A program made the position numbers and the translations under genes. Below, piece after piece: positions 15,107 through 28,282 of a stretch of DNA of 31,402 nucleotides. The stretch is from positions 1 to 31,402 of IMG/VR virus record IMGVR_UViG_3300010883_000248. One strand, given 5' to 3'. Numbering within the stretch: position 1 is the stretch's first letter; the number at the start of each line of letters is the position of its first letter. The notes under the pieces are model-generated. The model saw only the letters and a list, made by a program, of their open reading frames with translations, did not search any database and was not told the DNA's origin. Origin of the DNA: a virus.

Positions 15107-15959
15107 ATTGATTCTCCAAAAGCTCTTGTTTCAAGCTTGATATTGTTAGAAGACGGGAAACAGTGACATCATCAATCTGCTTCACTTGAAAATTGTTGAT
15201 CTTTTTTATAACATTTTCTATTTTCTCATTTAAGACATCATTATTGCATGTCTTCGAATATTCCTGGATTTCCTTAATTGCCTGCTTTTTTAGCTCATCA
15301 TATTTTTCAATCTTCACGGGACTGTTTAAATCTGTATCAAAAACATATTGCATGACAATATCTTGTTGTTCTTTATTTAAAGAATCTCCATATTTTTTAT
15401 TAAATTTTTCATTCATAATCTTAACGGTTAACGCATTGATATTTTCCGTCCCGCATTCTTCATCATGCAAAAGACTATGCACGGTTTCAGACAAAAGCCA
15501 ATTCGTAACCTCATTTTCATATTTTACCACACGGGCAATATCGGCTTTCTCATTTTTTCGCCAGTCATTAAGAAGAGTCTGAATGGTGGCATAATCACGA
15601 TATTCTTTAATTCGCTGATTATAAAAAGTTGAATCATCCAAAGTACAATTAATTTTTTTAATTAATCCTGATTTTTCATGGCGCAATTTATTCGCATTAA
15701 AATTCCTGGAAGCGTTTCTTGCATCCTCCAAAATCCTTGTTGCCAAACCTTCACGAGGAACGCGCGTTTTTATCAAAGCATTAAAAAGACGAAATTCCCG
15801 ATAAAGCTCTGTGCCAGGTTTAAAACATTCTCGAATTATCTGAAGTATTTGTTTGGCTTTCCTGTAATCCTTTTCCAAAACAGCTTTTGACATATATTTT
15901 GTCAATTGCTCAAATATGATCCCTACATTTCGTTTTTTATTGTGAGATCCTTTATTCAT
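15096..15959 (-). CDS. Helical protein between portal and protease, function unknown
   Basis: 287 aa, predicted almost entirely helical. The start ATG overlaps the portal stop by 8 nt (ATGAATAA), with GGAGAG inside the end of the portal gene. The N-terminal half holds KKRNVGIIFEQLTKYMSKAV, a helix with KAKQILQIIRECFKPGTELY and EFRLFNALIKTRV, a pattern that looks conserved and not low-complexity. The C-terminal half is Lys/Glu/Asn-rich coiled helix. No catalytic motif or membrane segment is visible. In T4 the corresponding interval (between genes 20 and 21) holds core proteins gp67 and gp68; this protein may fill a comparable assembly role, but it is much larger and no homology can be claimed. 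Confidence 0.78.
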   Translation of the reverse strand: MNKGSHNKKRNVGIIFEQLTKYMSKAVLEKDYRKAKQILQIIRECFKPGTELYREFRLFNALIKTRVPREGLATRILEDARNASRNFNANKLRHEKSGLIKKINCTLDDSTFYNQRIKEYRDYATIQTLLNDWRKNEKADIARVVKYENEVTNWLLSETVHSLLHDEECGTENINALTVKIMNEKFNKKYGDSLNKEQQDIVMQYVFDTDLNSPVKIEKYDELKKQAIKEIQEYSKTCNNDVLNEKIENVIKKINNFQVKQIDDVTVSRLLTISSLKQELLENQCER

Positions 15960-17919
15960 TTTCTATCTCTCCATCATTTCCATGATCTTCCGATAATAGT
16001 GAAACTGACTTCTTCAAACCCAACGCATTGCCCAGTCTTCCCAAAGTACGTTCTAACTCAGAAGTCATCATTGCATTTTGACCAATCCTGCTATTTAAAT
16101 AAGTATTCAAGAAAGAGTCTTCCACATTTTCTCCAAAAGGATTTTTAAGTGATTCCTTGTCATAGGGCATATTCATGGAATCCTGAGCACGGCCTGGGCG
16201 TCCGACACTGGCCATCTTGGCAAGATTCGGCATATGTGTAGAAGCCGGTCCTGAGGTAACCTTTCGGCTTTTCTTAATAGGCTCATTAAACACATTTCGG
16301 ATCTGTTTTTGGGCTTTGGCTGGAGCATTCATATCATTCAATGATAGCTTTAATATATCATCATCCTCGTCCTCGTCCTCATCCTCGTCAATACCCGAAT
16401 CTTCATCGGACGGTGTTGCTATAAGCAATGGGCCATCTGTTTCATCGCCTGCGAACAGACCGCCACCTTCTTCATCTCCTCCAGCCGGCTCTTCAGTTCC
16501 GCCGGTCTCGCCGGCCGGGGGCTCGGTGCCAACAGTTTCAAGCTCCGAGTCCCTAAGCTTATCTTCTTCCCTACCTTCTTCGATTCTCTCAATCTCTAGA
16601 TCGGTTAAGCCCATCACATTTTTGCGAATCCAAAATCGATCCACAACACCCTCGGGAGCTGTTCCAGCAATCTCAAATCGAGTGCGAATTAATTCCAGTT
16701 TTTGCTGTTGTGCAATTGATGATGGGTTTGAAAGAGCAAGATCAAAATCAATTAGATCATCACCCTCATATCCGTGACAATAAAGGTGAATCATCGCTAG
16801 TTTATTAAGTTCTGATACAACAGTTTTTTGAATTCGTTGAATTGAGCGAGAAAACCTAATATCCTCTTGTGCCAATGTTGCTTTTGCCCCAACATCTTCG
16901 TCATAACCCAAATATGCACGTGGAATCTTTAGCGCAGCGAATAGTTTCTTTTGGATGTATTCCACATCTTCAATGGCTGCAGTGTTCTGGCCACCAGCCA
17001 GTGTATCAATTTTGGTGCCAGATTCACTACCCCTCACAGGTAAAAAGTAATCCTCATCAACTGAAAGTGGATTATATCTCAGATCCACTTTCCCCGTTGT
17101 TTTATCAACCACCTGACCACGTTTTAAACTTGTCTGTGCCTGCTGAAGATAATCAGCAACATTTTCGGGAGGTACATTTCCCACATCAATGTAAAATACT
17201 CTTCGCTCAGGCGCGCGGATGACGCGATAAACAAGCATGGCATCTTCAATCAAAATCAACTGGCGCCAGATTCTTCTAGCGGATTCCAGCACACTCGTAC
17301 CGTATGGAAGAAATGCATCATTTGCCAGGAGCCGAAAATGACTAATTTGCCAGTTTTCAAGAACCGTGTTTCCCTGTGTCATCCATCGAAATCTCACTGC
17401 AGCTGGGTTATTAGGATCAAAGCCCTCTTCTCTCTCAATCTCAGATATTGCAATTGGAAAAGCATTTATCACGCCATATTCAGGAGATATATCATTGAAT
17501 AGAAAAAAGTCTCCATATTTGCAAAGATTTCGCACCCACATAACCAAATTAAATTCAATATTCAAAATGTCATAGAAGAGATTATCCAACAATTCATGAA
17601 TGCGACGATTCTCTGAATAGATGTGGAGAACTTTGCCCCTTTCATCCGGTGAGACAGTCTCTTCCGAATAGATGTCCAAAGCTGAAGCAATTTCCGGTGT
17701 GGCTTCCATTTCGCTGAAGTCACTATATCGTGACATCCGATCAAAAGCGCCATATGCGCTTAAAGCGCTATTATATACATCACTATGCGCGCGTTGGAAT
17801 AATTCCAGCGCAGTCGAAGCTCCGGGTTCCGCAAAATTCCTGACCTTTCTTTTGATGATCGGGCCGGACCTAAATAATTGTGTTAGTCTTTGAAACAGGC
17901 TTTGGGTTTTTCTCGGCAT
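15952..17919 (-). CDS. Portal protein (T4 gp20-like)
   Basis: 655 aa, ATG start with AGAGGAAATG upstream. Recognisable gp20-family blocks: YSDFSEMEATPEIASALDIY near residues 63-82, ETVSPDERGKVLHIYSENRR, FRLLANDAFLPYGTSVLESA, then VYRVIRAPERRVFYIDVGNV, VDEDYFLPVRGSESGTKIDT followed by AGGQN, and KIPRAYLGYDEDVGAKATLA. The portal forms the dodecameric ring at one capsid vertex through which the terminase pumps DNA and to which the neck attaches. It is longer than T4 gp20 (524 aa) because of an acidic, Gly/Pro/Glu-rich tail after residue 460 that includes a run of alternating Asp/Glu. It follows the large terminase gene with a 54-nt gap. Confidence 0.93.
   Translation of the reverse strand: MPRKTQSLFQRLTQLFRSGPIIKRKVRNFAEPGASTALELFQRAHSDVYNSALSAYGAFDRMSRYSDFSEMEATPEIASALDIYSEETVSPDERGKVLHIYSENRRIHELLDNLFYDILNIEFNLVMWVRNLCKYGDFFLFNDISPEYGVINAFPIAISEIEREEGFDPNNPAAVRFRWMTQGNTVLENWQISHFRLLANDAFLPYGTSVLESARRIWRQLILIEDAMLVYRVIRAPERRVFYIDVGNVPPENVADYLQQAQTSLKRGQVVDKTTGKVDLRYNPLSVDEDYFLPVRGSESGTKIDTLAGGQNTAAIEDVEYIQKKLFAALKIPRAYLGYDEDVGAKATLAQEDIRFSRSIQRIQKTVVSELNKLAMIHLYCHGYEGDDLIDFDLALSNPSSIAQQQKLELIRTRFEIAGTAPEGVVDRFWIRKNVMGLTDLEIERIEEGREEDKLRDSELETVGTEPPAGETGGTEEPAGGDEEGGGLFAGDETDGPLLIATPSDEDSGIDEDEDEDEDDDILKLSLNDMNAPAKAQKQIRNVFNEPIKKSRKVTSGPASTHMPNLAKMASVGRPGRAQDSMNMPYDKESLKNPFGENVEDSFLNTYLNSRIGQNAMMTSELERTLGRLGNALGLKKSVSLLSEDHGNDGEIENE
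16358..16390 (-). repeat. Short tandem repeat encoding the acidic tract of the portal
   Basis: Imperfect hexamer repeats (TCCTCG/TCCTCA on the + strand) encode an alternating Asp/Glu run of about eleven residues. It is a coding low-complexity tract within the disordered portal tail, prone to length change, not a mobile or CRISPR repeat. Confidence 0.7.
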
Positions 17920-17973: not shown

Positions 17974-19575
17974 TTAAACTAACCAAGATAAATCGCCATA
18001 AACAGGATGGCATGATCCACTAACTGCGGCGAATGGCTCATTTAATATAATTGGAATAAATGGATTTAATTTTTTTGCCACCCACGGACTCTCGTGTGAT
18101 ATTTGACTCTGACTTTCATTGACCTTTAGCGCATCCAGCATCGCCTTATTGACATCGACTGTATATTTGTTATAAGAAGGTGTTGTATCATATAACCAAA
18201 CGCCAATAGCCACTGACATTACAAGATCATCATTCTTTCCCTTTTGTGCCTGGGCCTTTGCACCCTTCCAAATGAATGTTTTTAATTCTTCATATAACCT
18301 AGAAGACGGAATCTTGAGTTGGCGATTTCTTATTACTTCTTCCAGCTTGGTGAGAATCTGATTTCGACTCTGTCCTGAAGTAGTAAACCCAATTTTATGC
18401 AAATTACTTTCGCCTGAATACATGCTGGCATAGCGATCCTTAGAGCTCTTGAAATATAAATTAGGATACCCTAATTCCTGCAATTTCATAACCACGGCAT
18501 AACCGTAAGTATTATTTTCTGGACACAGAAGTGCCTTGTTATAACGCATGCCAGCCTCATTCAGAAGCAACGCAAACTGATCGGGTGGTAATTTACCTTT
18601 ATACTCCGCCACAATCTCAGACTCCATGGTATCAATCACATGAAATGCCGAATAATCAGCTGCATCCCCGCGGGCGACGTCTGCAGAAATAATATAGTGA
18701 TGTTCAGATAATGCATATTTCCAAACCCACACACCCATATCAGGACCCCATTTCTCCAATGGATTTTTAACACCAGCCCTGATGTATTCTATATCATCTA
18801 TTGTAAGGAAGGTATCACCGCTAGCTGCAAAGTCACAAAGAAATTCTTGCGCAACTTGTTTCCTAGAAAAGTTTTTGGATTCATTCTCAAACCATTCTTC
18901 ATCGTGTTCTGGATGTACCCACCATGGAAGCTTAATGGGATTAAACTCATTTTCCCCCTCATCAGCCTTCATATAAAGCTCATGGTATTGTCCACCAACA
19001 CCATTAGGAGTTGAAAGAACAATGGAGCGCCCACCAGTTGATATTGTAGGATAAAGGCCCATCCATAGCTCATCAAAATTTCTCACAAATGCAGCCTCAT
19101 CCACAATCAAAAGTGATAAGGCCTCAGAGCGACCAGCATCATCTGATGTGGGAACAGCTTTGATCTGTGAGCCATTGCTAAACTCTAGCGATTGCTTATT
19201 GTTAGAAACAATTTGGGGTAGCACAAGCCATGATGGCAAATTTTTTATGGCTACTTTCACTTTTTTAATAAAATTTTGTGCAACTGCTAACTTTGTCGCA
19301 ATAACCAAAACGCTTTTATCTTTATAAAAAATTGCCATCCATACGGCATATGCTGCTGTAAGGGTAGAAATACCGAGTTGCCTCGATTTTAAGATGATGT
19401 TGAATCGGTGATCTACAAAATCCTTGAGACATTCATCCTGAAATTTGTAGGTTTTAAAAGAAATCAAGCCGCGGGTTGGATGTTGGATCTTAACGTATTT
19501 ATTTAAAAAATAAACTGGATCTTTTCCGCACTTTACTATTTCAGTAACTTGCCGTTGCTTGCTCGTAAAGGACAT
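17974..19575 (-). CDS. Terminase large subunit (T4 gp17-like)
   Basis: 533 aa; the ATG overlaps the stop of the preceding gene (TAATG). The N-terminal ATPase has a Walker A KSRQLGIST at residues 63-71 (gp17 has SRQLGKTT), Walker B LLIVDE at 155-160 and a coupling motif STPNG near 188-192. The C-terminal RNase H-like nuclease has acidic residues in IISADVARGDAADYS (D299, D304), LLCPENNTYGYA (E353) and KNDDLVMSVAIG (D449/D450). It drives ATP-dependent DNA packaging through the portal and cuts concatemers. It is slightly shorter than T4 gp17 (610 aa). The portal gene follows directly. Confidence 0.95.
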   Translation of the reverse strand: MSFTSKQRQVTEIVKCGKDPVYFLNKYVKIQHPTRGLISFKTYKFQDECLKDFVDHRFNIILKSRQLGISTLTAAYAVWMAIFYKDKSVLVIATKLAVAQNFIKKVKVAIKNLPSWLVLPQIVSNNKQSLEFSNGSQIKAVPTSDDAGRSEALSLLIVDEAAFVRNFDELWMGLYPTISTGGRSIVLSTPNGVGGQYHELYMKADEGENEFNPIKLPWWVHPEHDEEWFENESKNFSRKQVAQEFLCDFAASGDTFLTIDDIEYIRAGVKNPLEKWGPDMGVWVWKYALSEHHYIISADVARGDAADYSAFHVIDTMESEIVAEYKGKLPPDQFALLLNEAGMRYNKALLCPENNTYGYAVVMKLQELGYPNLYFKSSKDRYASMYSGESNLHKIGFTTSGQSRNQILTKLEEVIRNRQLKIPSSRLYEELKTFIWKGAKAQAQKGKNDDLVMSVAIGVWLYDTTPSYNKYTVDVNKAMLDALKVNESQSQISHESPWVAKKLNPFIPIILNEPFAAVSGSCHPVYGDLSWLV

Positions 19576-19986: not shown

Positions 19987-20292
19987 TCATCTTACCATCA
20001 TAGTTGGTTGACACATTATGGATTGAATGAATTCCTCTATTTCCACTGCGTCCGGTCGCCAGCCATTTTGCCATTTTTTTCTATATGGCTCTGCCCACTT
20101 ATAAGCACAGTCTTGGCAACATTCATATTTATCATAAGACATGAAGTCTCGCAAATCTCTCATTAAAAAATCGCAAACCGGACATTCAATTGGAGAAGGA
20201 GAAGTGGAATCCTTATGCTTAATTAACATTATGCCTGCATTAGTTTGATAATATACACGATCTCCAAAATATTCTTTCCACTCATCATTCAT
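19987..20292 (-). CDS. Small zinc-ribbon-like protein
   Basis: 101 aa from ATG 20292, which overlaps the SbcD-SbcC stop by 8 nt (ATGAATGA); an upstream in-frame ATG at 20325 would give 112 aa but a 41-nt overlap. Two cysteine pairs form a likely zinc site: CPVC at 37-40 and CCQDC at 58-62, about 17 residues apart. The remainder is rich in Trp, Tyr and Lys (AYKWAEPYRKKWQNGWRP). Small zinc-ribbon proteins often bind nucleic acid or polymerase, but no specific family is recognised. It closes the DNA-processing cassette and precedes the terminase block; a transcription or DNA-processing accessory role is inference. Confidence 0.7.
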   Translation of the reverse strand: MNDEWKEYFGDRVYYQTNAGIMLIKHKDSTSPSPIECPVCDFLMRDLRDFMSYDKYECCQDCAYKWAEPYRKKWQNGWRPDAVEIEEFIQSIMCQPTMMVR

Positions 20293-23200
20293 ATACAACC
20301 CTGGCATCCTTCCCAACACTATCAATGTCTAAAACATTGTCTACAGCGTCTTTCACGGCATCTACATGCGAAATAACCATGATATTCTTAAACCATTTCT
20401 TGAGTGAATTCAAAAGCCTGTTGCATGATTCCACATTCATTTCATCTAAAGCCCCAAATCCTTCATCAATAATAAGCATATCTGTCTTTGGTAAACAAGA
20501 AACATTAATCAATGCCACACGGATGGCCAAACTAGCCATCATTTTTTCCATGCCACTAGCACATTCAATAATTCGCTGTGAATCTCCATAATTAACTATG
20601 ATATCCATATCATTGGAACCTGATTCTGCTGTGAGTTCAACTGTAAATCCGATAACTCCTTGCAAAATCTTGGATATCTCAGCATTAATGATAGGCAGTT
20701 GAGATGTGATGATTTGTAAAGGAATTCCCTTCTTGGAAAATGCGCCCATTAAAATATCGTAACACTTCCATTCCTCAAACAATTTCCCATACTTTATTTT
20801 TTCTGCCGCTATTGTTTTGATTTCTTTTTGCAACAATGCGATAGACTCTGAAGCTGAGATTCTCTTGGCATCCAGCTTGGATATCTTATCTCTCAACGTG
20901 GTAATTTTACGACGTAGGTCAGAAACAGCACGTGCATTGGAATCCGAAGAGACTCGTAGTTTCATGCTGGAAAGATTGTTCTCGGATTCCGCCAATAGCT
21001 TATCAGCCTTATTTCGCTGAGTCAGCAATTGATTTAATGACATCTCATCACGTGAATCATCCAGCAATAAACCAGATTCCTGTTGCAAAATTTCCGTGTA
21101 TTTGTCTATCTTGGATTGTAGCTTTCGCTCTTCAAGTCTTTTTAAAGCCCTACGACTGGCACGAACACTAGATATAAGATCGTCAGCCGCCTTCTGCTGT
21201 ATGACGAGAAGTCCTTTGTTGGTGTGTGAATCCCTGATAAATTTGCAAGTTGGAAACTGAACACCACAAGGTACTTCACTCAATCTTTTCACTGATTTTT
21301 TCTGTTCCTTTAACAGATTCTTTTCTTTTTCGTGTGTGTGCTCCAATTCCAAAAGACTTTTTTCCAGATCACGCTGAATATTCAATTGCTCCTTCAGCTC
21401 ATCAACAGGAAATTGCTTCTTTAACTTACTAATTCGTTCAATCTTTAAAAAGCTATCTTGCCGGTTCACCTTCATCTCGCCAATCTTTTCTTTCAATATA
21501 ACTTGGGCAGATTTTATTTTTTCAATCTTGGCGGATTGGTCATCTACATCATGTTGTGTGACAGCATCCTTGTCTTTGTGAGTGGCTAACGTAATACTCT
21601 GCTGTTCAAGACTGGCTCTCGCATCCGCGCATTGCTTGTCGAGTTCTTCCTTGCGAAGCCGGTAATTATTTAACCTATCTTCTTTCTCAGCAATTGCAGT
21701 GTCCCAATCCTTGTCAGGGACATTTTTTAGCATTCCTTTAATCTCAGCCGAATCTTCCTTCGCCAAATATGCCATCTTTTCAAAAACATCTAAATCTAAA
21801 AACTTGTTAAGAATTGTCTTTCGCTGTGTCGCACGATTCTTGATGAAGGTGTTCATCTCCCCCTGGCTTGCTAAGGATGTAAGGAGAAAATCCTCAGCCG
21901 TACCGACCAGGGTTCTCATAGTTTTCTCAGTCTCTCGACGCTGTTCACCATTCAAATCCTGGATTACTTCACCTTCAGCATTCAGGCGTGAAAGATTAAG
22001 ATGTGTAACTGCGTGTACCTGTCCGGCTCGTGTCTGATGCTTTACTGATTGGCGCTCAGCACGATAAAGATTTCCATTCACAATAAAATCAACTCTTCCA
22101 AGACAATGCCCCTTTCGAGAATTAATGATGTGTATATTCTTAATTGGTCCTCTATCTGTGGTATTGAAAAGAGTATACATCAATGCACCTGCAATAGATG
22201 ATTTTCCGGAACGATTTCTTCCAAAAATGCCGGTAATACCAGATAATTTATCAAAATTGATAACATTCTCCTTTCCATAAAGAAACATGTTCTCAAATTC
22301 CAGGTTCTTAATGGAAAAGCAGGTATTGCGTGGGGCTTGTTCCTGGCCGGCGAGTTGATTGATATATTTGGTTACCAGTTTTTCAATCCTCTCCCACATC
22401 TCCTGTGAAATCTCTATCTCCTTATAATACTGTCCTAAAAGCCTCATGTGAATCTTTGGATCCCGTAAATCCTCATGGAATATCTCACCATCAGCGGTTT
22501 GAATAGCAGAACTAAAATTATCAGACTGCTCATATTTGAACACAATCTCAAAGGGTTTCTTTTCTTTTTTTAGTACGGCATAAAGCTGCTTAATCTCCGC
22601 CTGTGATATCAGGTCATTGGCACGGATGCGAAATCTAGATTCATCGGGATGAAGTCTGGCATTTTCCAAAACTAATCCCACATCACCATCCCAATCCAGC
22701 GTCACAAACGGATGTCGATGAGCCACAGGATAAAACGTGCTGGTATAGTGATCCTTATCATCAATTTCCCAATACAGGAACCCTTTTCCTGGATCTTCAC
22801 CATAATTCTGCTGGACGGTTGACCCGCAATAGGCAATTCTTTTCTCATCATCCAAATATTGAATGCGATGGATGTCTCCTAAAAAGGCAAAATCAAAACC
22901 TGCAAAAAAGTCAGTATCAACCTCACCCTCAATTTGCCAATTGATATCAGTTGCTGAACCCTGTACAGCACCGTGATAAAGGGCAATGTTAATGTCACCT
23001 TTCGCGGGAACTACATCTTTCCACCCTTCCTCATCGAAACACGAAAACACTCCCCAGTTGATTCCGTCAATTCCGGTGGGGTAAATACCAGACGTCTTAT
23101 AAAGATGAATTCTAGGGTTGTTCAGTGCCTTGACGATAGGAGTAATAGCATCTTGTCGATGTTTATTAAGAACCAGGCCATCATGATTACCCAAAATGAC

Positions 23201-23431
23201 ATGTGTGGGTGCCAATGCAGCTAAACTGGTAAACCACCAATTTAATAAATCAATCAATTCGGGAGAAATCCCTTGGGTCTTGGAGTGAACAATGTCACCA
23301 CCAACATAAATGACATCAGGTTTCAATTCCGCAACTTGACGAAACATATCCTCAAAAGACTCTCTGTATTCTTTATGGCGAGTCAGTCCCCTAAAATGCA
23401 CATCGGCAATGTGTACACAACTAAATTTCAT
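20285..23431 (-). CDS. Single-chain SbcD-SbcC (Mre11-Rad50; T4 gp47-gp46-like) fusion
   Basis: 1048 aa, ATG start with AGGA upstream. Residues 1-360 are an Mre11/SbcD-type metallophosphatase-nuclease: D10-x-H12, GGD (46), GNHD (81-84), H153 and GDIH (185-188). Residues 373-1048 are a Rad50/SbcC-type ATPase: Walker A GRNRSGKSS at 404-412, Q-loop at 523 (SLASQGEMNTF), a long coiled coil, a hook region at 722-729, a signature-like ECASGMEKMM near 957-965, Walker B LIIDEGFGALDE at 986-997 and an H-loop SHVD. The complex processes DNA ends during recombination; T4 gp46/47 drive recombination-dependent replication. Normally these are two genes, here one uninterrupted frame. The ABC signature is degenerate (SGMEK), and the hook is C-x6-C in place of CxxC. 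The primase gene precedes it by seven nt. Confidence 0.93.
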   Translation of the reverse strand: MKFSCVHIADVHFRGLTRHKEYRESFEDMFRQVAELKPDVIYVGGDIVHSKTQGISPELIDLLNWWFTSLAALAPTHVILGNHDGLVLNKHRQDAITPIVKALNNPRIHLYKTSGIYPTGIDGINWGVFSCFDEEGWKDVVPAKGDINIALYHGAVQGSATDINWQIEGEVDTDFFAGFDFAFLGDIHRIQYLDDEKRIAYCGSTVQQNYGEDPGKGFLYWEIDDKDHYTSTFYPVAHRHPFVTLDWDGDVGLVLENARLHPDESRFRIRANDLISQAEIKQLYAVLKKEKKPFEIVFKYEQSDNFSSAIQTADGEIFHEDLRDPKIHMRLLGQYYKEIEISQEMWERIEKLVTKYINQLAGQEQAPRNTCFSIKNLEFENMFLYGKENVINFDKLSGITGIFGRNRSGKSSIAGALMYTLFNTTDRGPIKNIHIINSRKGHCLGRVDFIVNGNLYRAERQSVKHQTRAGQVHAVTHLNLSRLNAEGEVIQDLNGEQRRETEKTMRTLVGTAEDFLLTSLASQGEMNTFIKNRATQRKTILNKFLDLDVFEKMAYLAKEDSAEIKGMLKNVPDKDWDTAIAEKEDRLNNYRLRKEELDKQCADARASLEQQSITLATHKDKDAVTQHDVDDQSAKIEKIKSAQVILKEKIGEMKVNRQDSFLKIERISKLKKQFPVDELKEQLNIQRDLEKSLLELEHTHEKEKNLLKEQKKSVKRLSEVPCGVQFPTCKFIRDSHTNKGLLVIQQKAADDLISSVRASRRALKRLEERKLQSKIDKYTEILQQESGLLLDDSRDEMSLNQLLTQRNKADKLLAESENNLSSMKLRVSSDSNARAVSDLRRKITTLRDKISKLDAKRISASESIALLQKEIKTIAAEKIKYGKLFEEWKCYDILMGAFSKKGIPLQIITSQLPIINAEISKILQGVIGFTVELTAESGSNDMDIIVNYGDSQRIIECASGMEKMMASLAIRVALINVSCLPKTDMLIIDEGFGALDEMNVESCNRLLNSLKKWFKNIMVISHVDAVKDAVDNVLDIDSVGKDARVVYE

Positions 23432-23438
23432 GAAATTC

Positions 23439-24416
23439 CTAAATTATTGATCCGCTCTTAATCTTGCGGATCATATGATAAAGACGATCTGAACTCTTCC
23501 AAACTGGCGCAGATTCCCTTCTTTTGTTAAAAACGTCTCTATTCATAGAACCAACATCCTCATATCCTGTAACATCCATCATCCTCACTTCCACACCAAA
23601 CTCACTCAAGAGCTTAGCGAATTTGTGTGATTTTCTTTCAGCATCCGGATCCAGTGCCAGCAAAATCGGTGTCTGGTTTTTAACAATTTTCTGAAATATC
23701 TCGTGATCTTTCTGAAGGCTACAGCCCAAAATACAACTGGCATTATCATTGCATTTCATAAGATCAAAAGGGCCTTCCACCAGTGTTAGCTCTTTTTTCC
23801 AATCAATATTTAATTCGTTGAAAACCACAGATTTTTTTGGCACCTTGGAATTTAAATATTTCATTTGTGAACCGGAATCAATCGTTCTTGCCACCAAATA
23901 ATTTAGTTCACCCTCATCATCAAAAGAAGGAACAATAAGACGGCGCCGATATCGACCCTGCAAACACGTACCCAATTTATAATACCAGAGATCCCTTTCA
24001 TTTAGCTCTCTGGAAATCGCATACTTTAAAACAGCCATGGCATCCGGATCGATACATCGACATGCAACCACTTCTGTGAGGGGGGTGAATTTGGCAGGTA
24101 GCTCAACCTTAAGCTCTTGTTCAGGTGCATTTTCCCCTTCTCTAACGAGCCTAAGCTTACCACCAAAGATCCCGACACATTCTTCCACCAAAGAAGGTCT
24201 GTACTTACGAACTAGGCTAACTGGAGACCGACCCTTAAGATCGCAAACCCAACAGTGATAGTTGCCAGTGTCTAACTTAACAATGAGTTTTCTTTTCTCG
24301 GTTCCTGCTTTTCCACAATTTGGGCACTTGAACGCAAAATTCAACCCATCAGTGCTTCTATCACAAGATCCCAAAGCCTTTTTAAGAAAAGACAGCCTAC
24401 CTCTCAAATTGCTCAT
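23439..24416 (-). CDS. DnaG-type DNA primase (T4 gp61-like)
   Basis: 325 aa, ATG start without a strong Shine-Dalgarno. An N-terminal zinc-binding domain has CPNC at 31-34 and CWVC at 55-58. The middle holds the RNA polymerase core pattern RRRLIVPSFDDEGELNYLVA and KYLNS. A Toprim domain follows: TLVEGPFDLMK with the catalytic Glu214, and LLALDPDAERKSHKFAKLL with D256 and D258. Primases lay down RNA primers on the lagging strand; T4 gp61 is of similar size (342 aa) and works with the gp41 helicase. No helicase domain is attached and none is encoded nearby in the window. It sits between the resolvase and SbcCD fusion genes in a compact cassette. Confidence 0.9.
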   Translation of the reverse strand: MSNLRGRLSFLKKALGSCDRSTDGLNFAFKCPNCGKAGTEKRKLIVKLDTGNYHCWVCDLKGRSPVSLVRKYRPSLVEECVGIFGGKLRLVREGENAPEQELKVELPAKFTPLTEVVACRCIDPDAMAVLKYAISRELNERDLWYYKLGTCLQGRYRRRLIVPSFDDEGELNYLVARTIDSGSQMKYLNSKVPKKSVVFNELNIDWKKELTLVEGPFDLMKCNDNASCILGCSLQKDHEIFQKIVKNQTPILLALDPDAERKSHKFAKLLSEFGVEVRMMDVTGYEDVGSMNRDVFNKRRESAPVWKSSDRLYHMIRKIKSGSII

Positions 24417-24431
24417 TAAGTAAATGTATCA

Positions 24432-25010
24432 TCAATTGAGTGGTATGTTCAAATCGTAGATCAGCGCAGAAGCAATCACATATGCATCAGCCATATCAAA
24501 AACCGAATTATCAAAAATGACTTCACCCTTTCTAGGACCTGATTTAAGGGTTTTCATTGGCCACTGATATCCTGGATGTTCTCTCTCAATACGATCGGAA
24601 ACCCAGTCATGAACTTGATGCTTGGTAGGTTTACCGCCATGGCTCTTACGAATAATGCGAATTCCCAAAGTTTTGCGAGCAGCGTTAACATTCAGATGCC
24701 TAGGTTCCAAACCTAAAATCTGATAGCTGAGAAGCGAAACAATTCCATTGAAACGTGCCAAAACTGATAGCGTTTTTGCCGAAGAAAGCCCAGGACGAAA
24801 AGCCTGCAAGTTTTCTTCAATAGAGATCCATTTTATTTTGTGTTGCTTTGCAAGTTTTTTTAAGCATTTTTGTACTGCATCAGCTTTTTTGTAAGTTCCT
24901 TTTATTTTTTGCAAATTGATGCTACCGATATCCACCAGCTTACCGGCGGGTGTCACAATACACCAACCTGTACAGGAAGTGCTCACATCTAAACCAAGTA
25001 TTAAATCCAT
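24432..25010 (-). CDS. RuvC-like Holliday junction resolvase
   Basis: 192 aa; ATG overlaps the preceding stop (TAATG). The RNase H-fold catalytic acids are visible: D8 in LGLDVSTSCTGW, E65/E66 in WISIEENLQAF, and D172/D175 in FDMADAYVIA. Between them is the helical segment LSSAKTLSVLARFNGIV, typical of phage and poxvirus-type RuvC relatives. The length matches RuvC (about 170-190 aa). It likely cleaves branched DNA during recombination and before packaging, the role filled in T4 by the unrelated endonuclease VII (gp49). It begins the DNA-processing cassette and is coupled to the end of the LamG-protein gene, so recombination and structural genes share a transcript here. Confidence 0.88.
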   Translation of the reverse strand: MDLILGLDVSTSCTGWCIVTPAGKLVDIGSINLQKIKGTYKKADAVQKCLKKLAKQHKIKWISIEENLQAFRPGLSSAKTLSVLARFNGIVSLLSYQILGLEPRHLNVNAARKTLGIRIIRKSHGGKPTKHQVHDWVSDRIEREHPGYQWPMKTLKSGPRKGEVIFDNSVFDMADAYVIASALIYDLNIPLN

Positions 25011-28000
25011 TAAAAATCTATTTTTACTCTAAAAAACAACTTATCTTGATCACGTTTCATCACTGGTTGTGCCAGATTGGTTCTTGCTATAATATTAAAG
25101 TTATTATCATGAAAGTTCAATCCGGTGATATAAACAAATTGCGAATTTTTGTCGTTTATGTTGTCCGACGGAAGAAGCTTTTGATATCGGGGGTTGGATG
25201 AAGAATTAAACATTCCGGCCGGAGCAGGAATCATCATTTCCAAAACATGCACATTTCTATCACCTTGAAACTCAATAGAATATGCCTCGTGAGATGCTAC
25301 AGCTTGATCCCCTGCAACAATGACTGTTCCTAACTCAACTCCATCTTCCTCATACGCCTTCAGGCCCGGGGTACGCAGGTCAGATATTTGTGCTGCATTA
25401 AATCCAAATGTGTAAATGTGTGGAGACTTAATGGCAATCAATCCATCGTCATAAAAAACATTCCCAACACTATTCCATTTTGCATGGGGAGTTTTGGAAT
25501 CAGCACGATACAAATTTCCGTCACCGTTATCACGCAAAACCATGCTCAATGGAGCCTTGAAATCGCTTGATTCTTCGGATTTCACCAGCCCCAATATGCC
25601 CCTGATTGTAAGCGAACCAGGCTGAATACGATCGCCATAATACAGGTTTGAAACATTAAAAAATGACACCATGTTGCTGCTGTTGTCCATCAAACCTGTG
25701 CCTACTGCCGTTATGGCACCCAGCTTTGCGACCGAATCCGGATCAACACCTTCCGGAAGATTGCTGGTAGATATTGCCTTTAATCCATTGGGAAAAAGGG
25801 CCGGCCAATAAGGTGTGGCTCCCATCACTGCATCACCTAGATTGCTTGTGGCACTACTCTGGTAATAGGCATTTGCCGGATCAATCGCAGCCATTTTATC
25901 CATAGTCCACATAGGGTCGGGAGGAGTTCCGTCTTCGGAGGGCTCAAGCTCTCCCTGGTATATCATGTCATTGAGTGTAATCAGGCTAAAGTCCAAAATC
26001 CCTTTGTCTGATACAAACTTATCTAAAAGGCTACCAGATTTGGGAGAAAACACATCGGCCTTGTAATCTAAAAATGGATTGGCTTTATCAAACTGCACCA
26101 GATCCAAGCTATCACTCCCTTGCAGCGCGCCAATAATTGAATCTGTTCCGCTGACCAACATGGGAAAATAGGGTCGAAATAGCCCGTTATCACATGGCAT
26201 GATCAACGAATTAGCCTTGGCAATTTTTTCCTTACCTGCTGTTCCATATCCCAATAATGATGTCTTTGCCCCGTAGTCAGCCGGACTTTCCAACTCTGTT
26301 CCAAATCCATCGGTTGCGATTATGGCGGTGTTGTTGGTGAAGGTGGCGGATAACTTGTCAGGAACTAGAGAAGCCGTCAGGTTATAAAGTCGGGGATATT
26401 TTTTATTTGCAAAATCTCTTAAAAAATTAGGAAGATTAATTTGCAGGCAGTTTGTCGTAAAAGCCAGTTTCACATTAAACGGCGTGACCGTATCTTCATA
26501 GTTGGTTGCAGCGATGGTGCTAATTTCCGCTCCAGATTCATCGTAAATTGTAGTCGCTGCCGGATTGCACTTATAAAAAGGTGTCCATGCTACCTCACGT
26601 TTTGGAGTTTCCTTCACAAACGCCACGGGAAGATAGAACATCAGTTTTTGTTTTGGCTTGAGGGGCGGAAGGCCCGTGTATTGTACTCCATCAACTTCCA
26701 GGGTATGAACAGAAAGATCAGGATTAAAAATTTTACCAGTTCCGGCGGCAGCAGCGGCTATTTGGCCCCCGTAATGAATTCCCTTAGAGGAAAAATTCTG
26801 TATCATGTTATAGTTGAGCGTCGTCTGTGACCGCTTGGCTATAAGATCCGGATCAATTCCATATTGCCAGATTCTCAACTCATGCACCTCAGCCTGAAGA
26901 TCATGTTGAAAACTAAAGTTTGTTGGAGATATGGTTTTGTCTGGCCGCAAAGTTGGAAGACCAAAAGCCGGTGACGAGTTGTTATTGAAAAACAGCGCAA
27001 TTTCACTATCATTGGCTGCTGCATTTCGTCCCTCATAATAGTTTCCAATGAAAAGCGCGTCTGGATCTGAGACAGTACCTTCGCCACTTGGAAGTGCACT
27101 GGGAAAATATGCCGGCATGATGGAGGCTGACGGGATGCTGAATCTTCCTGTAGCATCCACTTTTCCATCAATTATAAAATGCCCTTCTTTCCCTTGCTGC
27201 GTGGGAGACCAGCGAATTGCAACATGGTGCCAGTGATTGTGGTATAATGATGCTGAACTCACAAAAATCATGTCTTTGCGCCAGCCCGGGCGGTTTGCCC
27301 TATAATTCACGATCCCGGCAACTTCACGCACATCATAATTATTGGGCACAGGTGTGCCGGCAGTCATGCCGGTATCTACACCTAGCGGTTGAAGCAATGT
27401 TACATCACGTGGAGCGACATCAGCGCTGTGCGAAAGCTGCAACATAATCTTAAAATCAGACGGATTGTTTTGAAGATCACGCTGGCTTCCAGTTACCAAT
27501 GAAATCGCATAACAAGAAGACATGTGCATGATCGTACCCGCCGGGAATTCGCCCTGATCATCCAGTTTATTATATCGAGGATTGATCCAGAACTCAAACG
27601 TGAAACCATTGCGAGGTCGATACGGAGTATACAAAAATGACTTGTTTGTCACAATCTGTGACTTGATCGTGTCGGTGGCATTAATGCCATCAACACTAAG
27701 AAATGATGATGTGGATGCCGGATAAATCAGCGCTGTCCCGTTGGTGGGTACCCCAGTTGCCAGTGCATCATCGTTATACCCATGTGCATGATTGAGTGAA
27801 CTAGTAAAAAAATTCAGACAATTAAAATTTGTATATGCCCAATTCATTCCTGGATATTGATGCTTGTAATTGTAAGCCAGCGTCTTACGAACAAAGTTTT
27901 TGGCCAGGCTAGCCGTTGTTAGTGTAGGGGCAGAGCGAAAATGACTTATCGATACCTGTTGCTGCTTGCGACGTGAGGAGGGCAGCATGCGCACTAAATT

Positions 28001-28282
28001 CATATAGCCATCAACTATATCTAGCGCATTAGCATTTGGGATTAGTGACAGAGTTTCATTGGCAACTTTCAATGCATCAAGAGCATTGATTAATACTGAT
28101 TCACCAAAAGCAGTCTTCTGATTCTCGTTCAGGAACTCAGCGTCTTTTTCTATTGGGGATCTTTGAGCATATACATATACGGAACCGGTAACACCATGTG
28201 AACCGGTGCTAAAAGATCTACTTGGATGAGTCTCCAAAGTAGATACATCAAAATTTCTGGGCGTAAGTGCAATAACTGACAT
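25010..28282 (-). CDS. Large virion appendage protein with LamG-like domain
   Basis: 1090 aa, ATG start with only a weak Shine-Dalgarno (GAAAG). The N-terminal 40 residues contain RSFSTGSHGVTGSVYVYAQR. Residues about 225-480 form a LamG/concanavalin-like jelly roll: GFTFEFWINPRY, HWHHVAIRW, GHFIIDGKVD, ALFIGNYYEG and VHELRIWQYGIDPDLI. Such domains often bind sugars. A long beta/loop-rich region follows. The last 70 residues (FNSSSNP, then ARTNLAQPVMKRDQDKLFFR and KIDF at the end) match the end of the adjacent 431-aa protein. No signal peptide or membrane segment. A receptor-facing fibre or baseplate-associated role is likely from domain content and location; the exact T4 counterpart is unknown. 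Confidence 0.8.
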   Translation of the reverse strand: MSVIALTPRNFDVSTLETHPSRSFSTGSHGVTGSVYVYAQRSPIEKDAEFLNENQKTAFGESVLINALDALKVANETLSLIPNANALDIVDGYMNLVRMLPSSRRKQQQVSISHFRSAPTLTTASLAKNFVRKTLAYNYKHQYPGMNWAYTNFNCLNFFTSSLNHAHGYNDDALATGVPTNGTALIYPASTSSFLSVDGINATDTIKSQIVTNKSFLYTPYRPRNGFTFEFWINPRYNKLDDQGEFPAGTIMHMSSCYAISLVTGSQRDLQNNPSDFKIMLQLSHSADVAPRDVTLLQPLGVDTGMTAGTPVPNNYDVREVAGIVNYRANRPGWRKDMIFVSSASLYHNHWHHVAIRWSPTQQGKEGHFIIDGKVDATGRFSIPSASIMPAYFPSALPSGEGTVSDPDALFIGNYYEGRNAAANDSEIALFFNNNSSPAFGLPTLRPDKTISPTNFSFQHDLQAEVHELRIWQYGIDPDLIAKRSQTTLNYNMIQNFSSKGIHYGGQIAAAAAGTGKIFNPDLSVHTLEVDGVQYTGLPPLKPKQKLMFYLPVAFVKETPKREVAWTPFYKCNPAATTIYDESGAEISTIAATNYEDTVTPFNVKLAFTTNCLQINLPNFLRDFANKKYPRLYNLTASLVPDKLSATFTNNTAIIATDGFGTELESPADYGAKTSLLGYGTAGKEKIAKANSLIMPCDNGLFRPYFPMLVSGTDSIIGALQGSDSLDLVQFDKANPFLDYKADVFSPKSGSLLDKFVSDKGILDFSLITLNDMIYQGELEPSEDGTPPDPMWTMDKMAAIDPANAYYQSSATSNLGDAVMGATPYWPALFPNGLKAISTSNLPEGVDPDSVAKLGAITAVGTGLMDNSSNMVSFFNVSNLYYGDRIQPGSLTIRGILGLVKSEESSDFKAPLSMVLRDNGDGNLYRADSKTPHAKWNSVGNVFYDDGLIAIKSPHIYTFGFNAAQISDLRTPGLKAYEEDGVELGTVIVAGDQAVASHEAYSIEFQGDRNVHVLEMMIPAPAGMFNSSSNPRYQKLLPSDNINDKNSQFVYITGLNFHDNNFNIIARTNLAQPVMKRDQDKLFFRVKIDF

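Follow-up and report, generated by a model that had tools for sequence, protein, structure and literature searches.

The gene at positions 20285 to 23431 (minus strand) of the window, the 31,402-nucleotide stretch of viral DNA analyzed here (IMG/VR record IMGVR_UViG_3300010883_000248), encodes in a single 1048-residue chain both an SbcD/gp47-type nuclease and an SbcC/gp46-type ATPase. The fusion is real. It is also ordinary for its phage group, and the part that will surprise a specialist is a series of relatives in which the fused gene has been split again. The original prediction, made from the sequence alone, was of an uninterrupted 1048-codon frame carrying both enzymes, with no strand given, and we found exactly such a frame. 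It opens with an ATG at 23431, closes with a stop codon at 20285-20287, and has no internal stops; for a random open frame of 1048 codons at the window's base composition, p is about 1e-28.

We searched this single ORF with domain profiles, as had been proposed, and both enzymes were recovered. Pfam matched Metallophos (calcineurin-like phosphoesterase) to residues 6-188 (E 4e-11) and SMC_N (SMC/RecF-type ATPase) to residues 374-1037 (E 2.9e-9; 37.1 bits, slightly below the 40-bit cut-off). NCBIfam matched sbcd (residues 6-85) and sbcc (residues 375-717), both significantly and both below the models' curated cut-offs. PHROG 77, the "SbcC-like subunit" of a palindrome specific endonuclease, covered residues 326-1040 (E 7.5e-56). 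A PDB profile search returned SbcC, Rad50, SbcD, and Mre11 chains, and in the profile alignment residues 172-363 corresponded to residues 209-399 of E. coli SbcD.

To these matches we added an AlphaFold2 monomer model built on an alignment of 77 sequences (mean pLDDT 84.7, pTM 0.54). In the model the phosphoesterase is followed by a capping-like domain, a pair of helices, and a linker; the ATPase head begins at residue 371, and the long helices bear a hook near residues 722-729. Its best Foldseek matches were MRN, SbcCD, and Rad50 structures, and in BFVD the best fold matches were to full-length mimivirus-group proteins, with two Tenacibaculum phages next.

The Mre11/SbcD-type phosphoesterase occupies residues 1-235 (22727-23431, minus strand, as are all features of this gene), as judged from Pfam PF00149, invariance in the 77 relatives, and the model. 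Its motif residues are D10xH12, G45D46xxH49, G81N82H83D84, H153G, and G185D186xH188. The metal site (DxH, GD, GNH, H, GxxH) is complete, with one His ligand replaced by Asp: D186 stands in place of His206 (Pyrococcus numbering), and both it and H49 of the GDxxH motif II are invariant in the 77 relatives. A hairpin turn at residues 193-198 (22838-22855), between model strands 190-192 and 199-202, is the site at which a sister branch is split and is intact in the window. There follow a capping-type domain at residues 236-300 (22532-22726), assigned from the order of secondary structure in the model and the SbcD profile match, and the Rad50-binding helix-loop-helix of Mre11/SbcD at residues 325-363 (22343-22459), assigned from model helices 325-335 and 343-363 and the SbcD profile match, which continues through SbcD residue 399.

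The two enzymes had been predicted to join near residues 360-373, and they do. Helix 343-363 leads into an interdomain linker of about seven residues (364-370; 22322-22342; model and alignment) and then into the first ATPase strand (371-380), and the span from residue 360 to residue 371 is 11 to 12 residues long in all 77 relatives. The Rad50/SbcC ATPase N-lobe extends over residues 371-550 (21782-22321; Pfam and PDB profile matches) and includes, in the alignment of the 77 relatives, the Walker A motif GRNRSGKS at residues 404-411 (22199-22222). Long helices in the model mark an antiparallel coiled coil at residues 551-898 (20738-21781). The C-lobe, at residues 899-1048 (20288-20737; Pfam, PDB profiles, and alignment), carries the signature at residues 959-963, Walker B residues DE at 989-990, the D-loop, and the H-loop (H1022). 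With the Q-loop, all six ATPase motifs are present, although the signature reads SGMEK rather than SGGxx. Both sets of motifs thus lie in one frame, as had been claimed, and these six together with DxH, GDxxH, GNHD, HG, and GDxH are essentially invariant across the 77 relatives.

The apex of the coiled coil does not carry a CxxC zinc hook. The corresponding element is C722-x6-C729 (21245-21268), with both cysteines invariant in the 77 relatives; the CX6C spacing (PCGxxFPTCKF) is found in 70 of them, and the remaining 7 have an extra Cys or altered spacing. Because the hook is CX6C instead of CxxC, we class the protein as a single-chain relative with MR-like function and a variant hook.

We then looked across viral sequences for fused and split forms. 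Queried with the whole fused protein, IMG/VR yielded 49 relatives. Each half was also used as a query by itself, a search that can detect two-gene forms equally well; the nuclease half gave at least 570 confirmed stretches and the ATPase half at least 594. We retained the best 80 from each, a sample biased to the closest relatives; two extra scans with re-split N-halves contributed further loci. Among the matches listed, 164 of 168 distinct continuous nuclease sequences, a few of them from named phages, run in frame into the ATPase. Two of the four exceptions stop at a contig edge, and the other two (L324 and L405) have disrupted frames. Wherever the SbcD/SbcC junction lies inside the contig, every sampled relative is fused, bar those two frame-disrupted copies. 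Fused relatives reach down to about 30% identity, and SbcD and SbcC as separate, consecutive genes were absent from the clade, again among the matches listed.

We also searched 12 long records (175 to 309 kb, including the 190-kb Microcystis phage Mel-JY01) in their entirety. Eleven have a single continuous fused gene; the 12th, of 309 kb, has the gene in re-split form, with one match for each half. None of the 12 has a separate gp46/gp47 copy, the sole extra match, in Mel-JY01, being a weak one to 86 coiled-coil residues. A single-chain SbcD-SbcC is what the aquatic phages of this large group normally have, and we infer that the fusion predates the radiation of the group and has been inherited within it. 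The original prediction had treated the fusion as a departure from the usual, while allowing that wide occurrence would make it routine; on this point it did not hold, and its interpretation of the fusion as a whole is only partly supported. A bacterial origin was also considered and rejected; one scan across 84,980 species of bacteria and archaea returned only distant SbcC and SbcD matches, with no fused ORFs among the loci kept.

Could the fusion be an artifact, a stop or frameshift missed between two ordinary genes? There is a precedent in Listeria phage LMTA-57 (L055, 59521-62550), whose "fused" gene is 3030 nt long versus 3031 nt in near-identical relatives that, where annotated, carry two genes. 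Since it is one base shorter than its relatives, we attribute that fusion to a likely isolated indel or sequencing error and rejected it as a second natural case. For the window the same explanation has virtually no chance of being correct. A fused-type gene that is 84% identical lies on an independent 267-kb contig and is open across the junction, and more than 160 other distinct sequences, down to about 30% identity, share the open frame and the constant junction of 11 to 12 residues. This agreement rules out a sequencing error at the junction.

It is also conceivable that one gene yields two proteins, if translation also starts internally at the junction or a protease cuts there, so that a free SbcC half is made as well. 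Both the natural boundary between the domains and an in-frame Met (residue 382) would permit this. However, Met382 comes after the first ATPase strand, and between residues 345 and 399 any given Met position is kept in at most 9 of the 77 relatives, so we regard such a free half as very unlikely. A further idea is that the protein has acquired a new activity, for instance as a monomeric nuclease-ATPase with different end loading or release, or as a defense or counterdefense effector, rather than replacing gp46/47. The clade-specific GDxH in motif V, the SGMEK signature, and the CX6C hook could be read in this way, and the nuclease-SMC defense systems Jet and Lamassu are among the fold matches. 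Yet the catalytic and dimer-forming elements are all retained, and the gene is present in single copy, sits in a replication/recombination context, and is universal rather than sporadic in the sampled clade, all of which makes a new activity very unlikely.

The genomic context is a replication/recombination block adjoining the terminase and portal genes. Immediately upstream of the fused gene lie a DnaG-type DNA primase (23439-24416, minus strand; PHROG 47) and a RuvC-like Holliday junction resolvase (24432-25010, minus strand; PHROG 159), which, among the matches listed, are also upstream in 212 and 196, respectively, of the 224 relatives with sufficient upstream DNA. Downstream are a T4-type terminase large subunit (17974-19575, minus strand; Pfam PF03237) and a T4-type portal protein, gp20 (15952-17919, minus strand; Pfam PF07230), each found downstream in 160 of 162 relatives among the matches listed. 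By terminase, the nearest named relatives are the Flavobacterium immuto phages and Mel-JY01, at about 42 to 43%.

Two further ORFs lie nearby. A small ORF at 19987-20325 has paired cysteines, looks zinc-ribbon-like by eye, and shares about 40 bases with the 3' end of the fused gene; it is kept downstream in 142 of 162 relatives among the matches listed. A 1090-residue ORF at 25010-28282 has a weak Laminin_G_3 match below the cut-off (E 7e-5), and 174 of 224 relatives, among the matches listed, have a homologue upstream of the fused gene.

We consider it very probable that the window protein is a single-chain phage SbcCD/gp46-gp47 (Mre11-Rad50) DNA-end nuclease that works as a homodimeric M2R2 complex in recombination-dependent replication. 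Two chains would pair through their nuclease domains and ATP-bound heads, giving an M2R2 assembly like that of T4 gp46/gp47 or E. coli SbcCD, with each Rad50-binding helix pair docked on a coiled-coil root. ATP binding would close the heads and hydrolysis would admit the nuclease to DNA ends, coupling ATP-gated end binding to resection or hairpin cleavage. By analogy with T4 gp46/gp47, which are annotated as recombination and host-DNA-degradation subunits, the nuclease would serve recombination-dependent replication and genome repair and perhaps the breakdown of host DNA.

Since a single chain carries both nuclease and ATPase, the 1:1 ratio is fixed, as had been anticipated, and this ratio together with guaranteed co-expression would be the main benefit of the fusion. 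The further suggestion that fusion could change how DNA ends are held and released found no evidence in its favor; the Rad50-binding helices and short linker look made to reproduce ordinary MR geometry. Judging from sequence, the Asp in place of the motif V His, the SGMEK signature, and the CX6C hook could alter metal, ATP, or hook chemistry.

Fusions of this kind have been published since 2011, and the window protein is a further case, in a clade where fusion is the rule. In the 2011 paper of Yoshida, Claverie, and Ogata (PMC3175470), fused Mre11/Rad50 proteins are reported from Mimivirus (R555), from one Bacillus phage, and from plasmids, bacteria, and eukaryotes. The authors found the viral size fractions of aquatic metagenomes to be exceptionally rich in R555-like genes, which shared scaffolds with phage primases, and suggested that some belong to phages. 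They also argued from structure that the Mre11-then-Rad50 order suits MR geometry, with about 28 Å spanned by a linker of 9 to 12 residues. The literature that we searched contained no other description of an SbcD-SbcC fusion and no biochemistry on any viral Mre11/Rad50 fusion.

The likeness between R555 and the window protein, which rests on features stated in that paper and on fold matches to R555 relatives, suggests that the two may be of common descent. Both have Mre11 before Rad50, GDxxH, Asp for the motif V His, a retained helix-loop-helix, and a short linker, and each is the sole copy in its virus. R555 is longer, however, at 1351 residues (1343 to 1389 in related fold matches) versus 1048, with longer coiled coils, and belongs to a eukaryotic giant virus, whereas the window protein has a CX6C hook and comes from a T4-like phage genome.

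Among phages, the Mel-JY01 protein WWT39521.1 (L051) is likewise fused, matches the window protein over its full length at 29.5% identity, and has GDIH, SGMEK, and a primase-like gene immediately upstream; it differs in its CxxC hook and is annotated only as an "AAA domain containing protein." The window protein has the motif V Asp in common with Mel-JY01 and with LR756501, a phage of 735 kb; GHxH is kept in T4 and in the Moorella and Listeria phages, and the hook is CxxC in Mel-JY01, LR756501, and T4. Bacillus phage 0305phi8-36 (A7KV18) and Tenacibaculum phages pT24 and PTm1 also have single-chain MR-like proteins. The first, unlike the window protein, is without one P-loop segment and the capping/helix-loop-helix region (PMC3175470), and the Tenacibaculum proteins, known here from fold matches alone, are about 1310 residues long, against 1048.

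T4 itself has the same two enzymes and the same type of terminase and portal, but gp47 and gp46 are encoded by two genes separated by two small ORFs, with a GHxH motif V and a CPTC hook. The best-matched solved structures are those of E. coli SbcD and SbcC (6S6V, 6S85, 7YZO, and 7YZP), which share the 1:1 nuclease-ATPase head; that enzyme, however, consists of two polypeptides with a much longer coiled coil, SbcC alone having 1048 residues.

Outside the window, 28 distinct relatives have the fused gene split again, not at the SbcD/SbcC junction but within the nuclease, at the turn that follows GDIHxxQ (around query residues 193-198). These are L052, L187, L195, L197, L199, L209, and L210 and loci in the range L293-L418. 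The N-halves end in added tails such as REVEIEIDEDDLFKYPGCTIIE and REVEIEIDEDDL, and the C-halves begin with tails such as MGKKIKIKVKKPWIAY and MGKKIKIKVKKPW; unsplit sisters have only a short turn, for example GYRDGKPW. The N-tails carry charges of −11 to −2 (mean, −5.6), compared with a mean of +1.2 for other C termini in the same loci. The scripted mean for the C-tails was +4.4, with L199, L296, L402, and L411 scored as 0 (start codon mispicked); read by eye, the tails of these four are also positive. A 4-nt overlap between the halves is common.

In L360, a 300-residue ORF with Vsr similarity (E 2e-7) lies between the halves, and in L052 an ORF with TnsA-like similarity does; in both loci, the halves of the enzyme are thus separated by an endonuclease gene. 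A homologue of the L360 ORF is upstream of the C-half in L195, at the contig end, and the 3' end of an L360-type gene remains as a remnant in L209, L301, L310, and L357; most other re-split loci had no detectable endonuclease remnant. In a FastTree tree that included 27 split rows, the window fell within a set of 69 rows that are all continuous; the sister set, of 35 rows, took in all but one of the split rows (26 of 27), and the tree as a whole required 8 changes between continuous and split. Close mixed pairs (L203/L357 and L189/L301) suggest repeated gain and loss.

When L209 was folded by AlphaFold2 with its single TAA read through, both hairpin strands lengthened to 13 residues (188-200 and 233-245; block pLDDT 83 to 93, connector unordered), compared with 3 to 4 residues in the window model, a result that is only suggestive because the artificial linkage favors strand pairing. 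Two other explanations for the split were rejected. The appended tails, at about 15 to 30 residues, are too short for a split intein, and we saw no intein motifs; nor were there Rfam matches to a structured intron in L052 or L187.

The re-split locus looks like a gene fractured by a homing endonuclease whose product zips together again. On balance, we favor the view that in the sister branch and one megaphage a mobile endonuclease broke the fused gene and that the halves rejoin through newly acquired, charge-complementary β-strands that extend the hairpin. Parallels include nrdA in phage Aeh1, along with genes for topoisomerase and polymerase that homing endonucleases or intercistronic insertions have divided, and how the products of such split genes reassemble has been called an open question (PMC2988022).

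On this reading of the split, the same enzyme exists as two proteins in T4, as one in the window, and as two differently cut proteins in the sister branch. The re-split relatives offer a natural series of two genes, one gene, and two differently cut genes. A stoichiometrically fixed Mre11-Rad50 of 1048 residues, smaller than the two-protein bacterial enzyme, could suit structural work. T4-like phages, rather than giant viruses, may account for at least some of the abundant "R555-like" signal in metagenomes.
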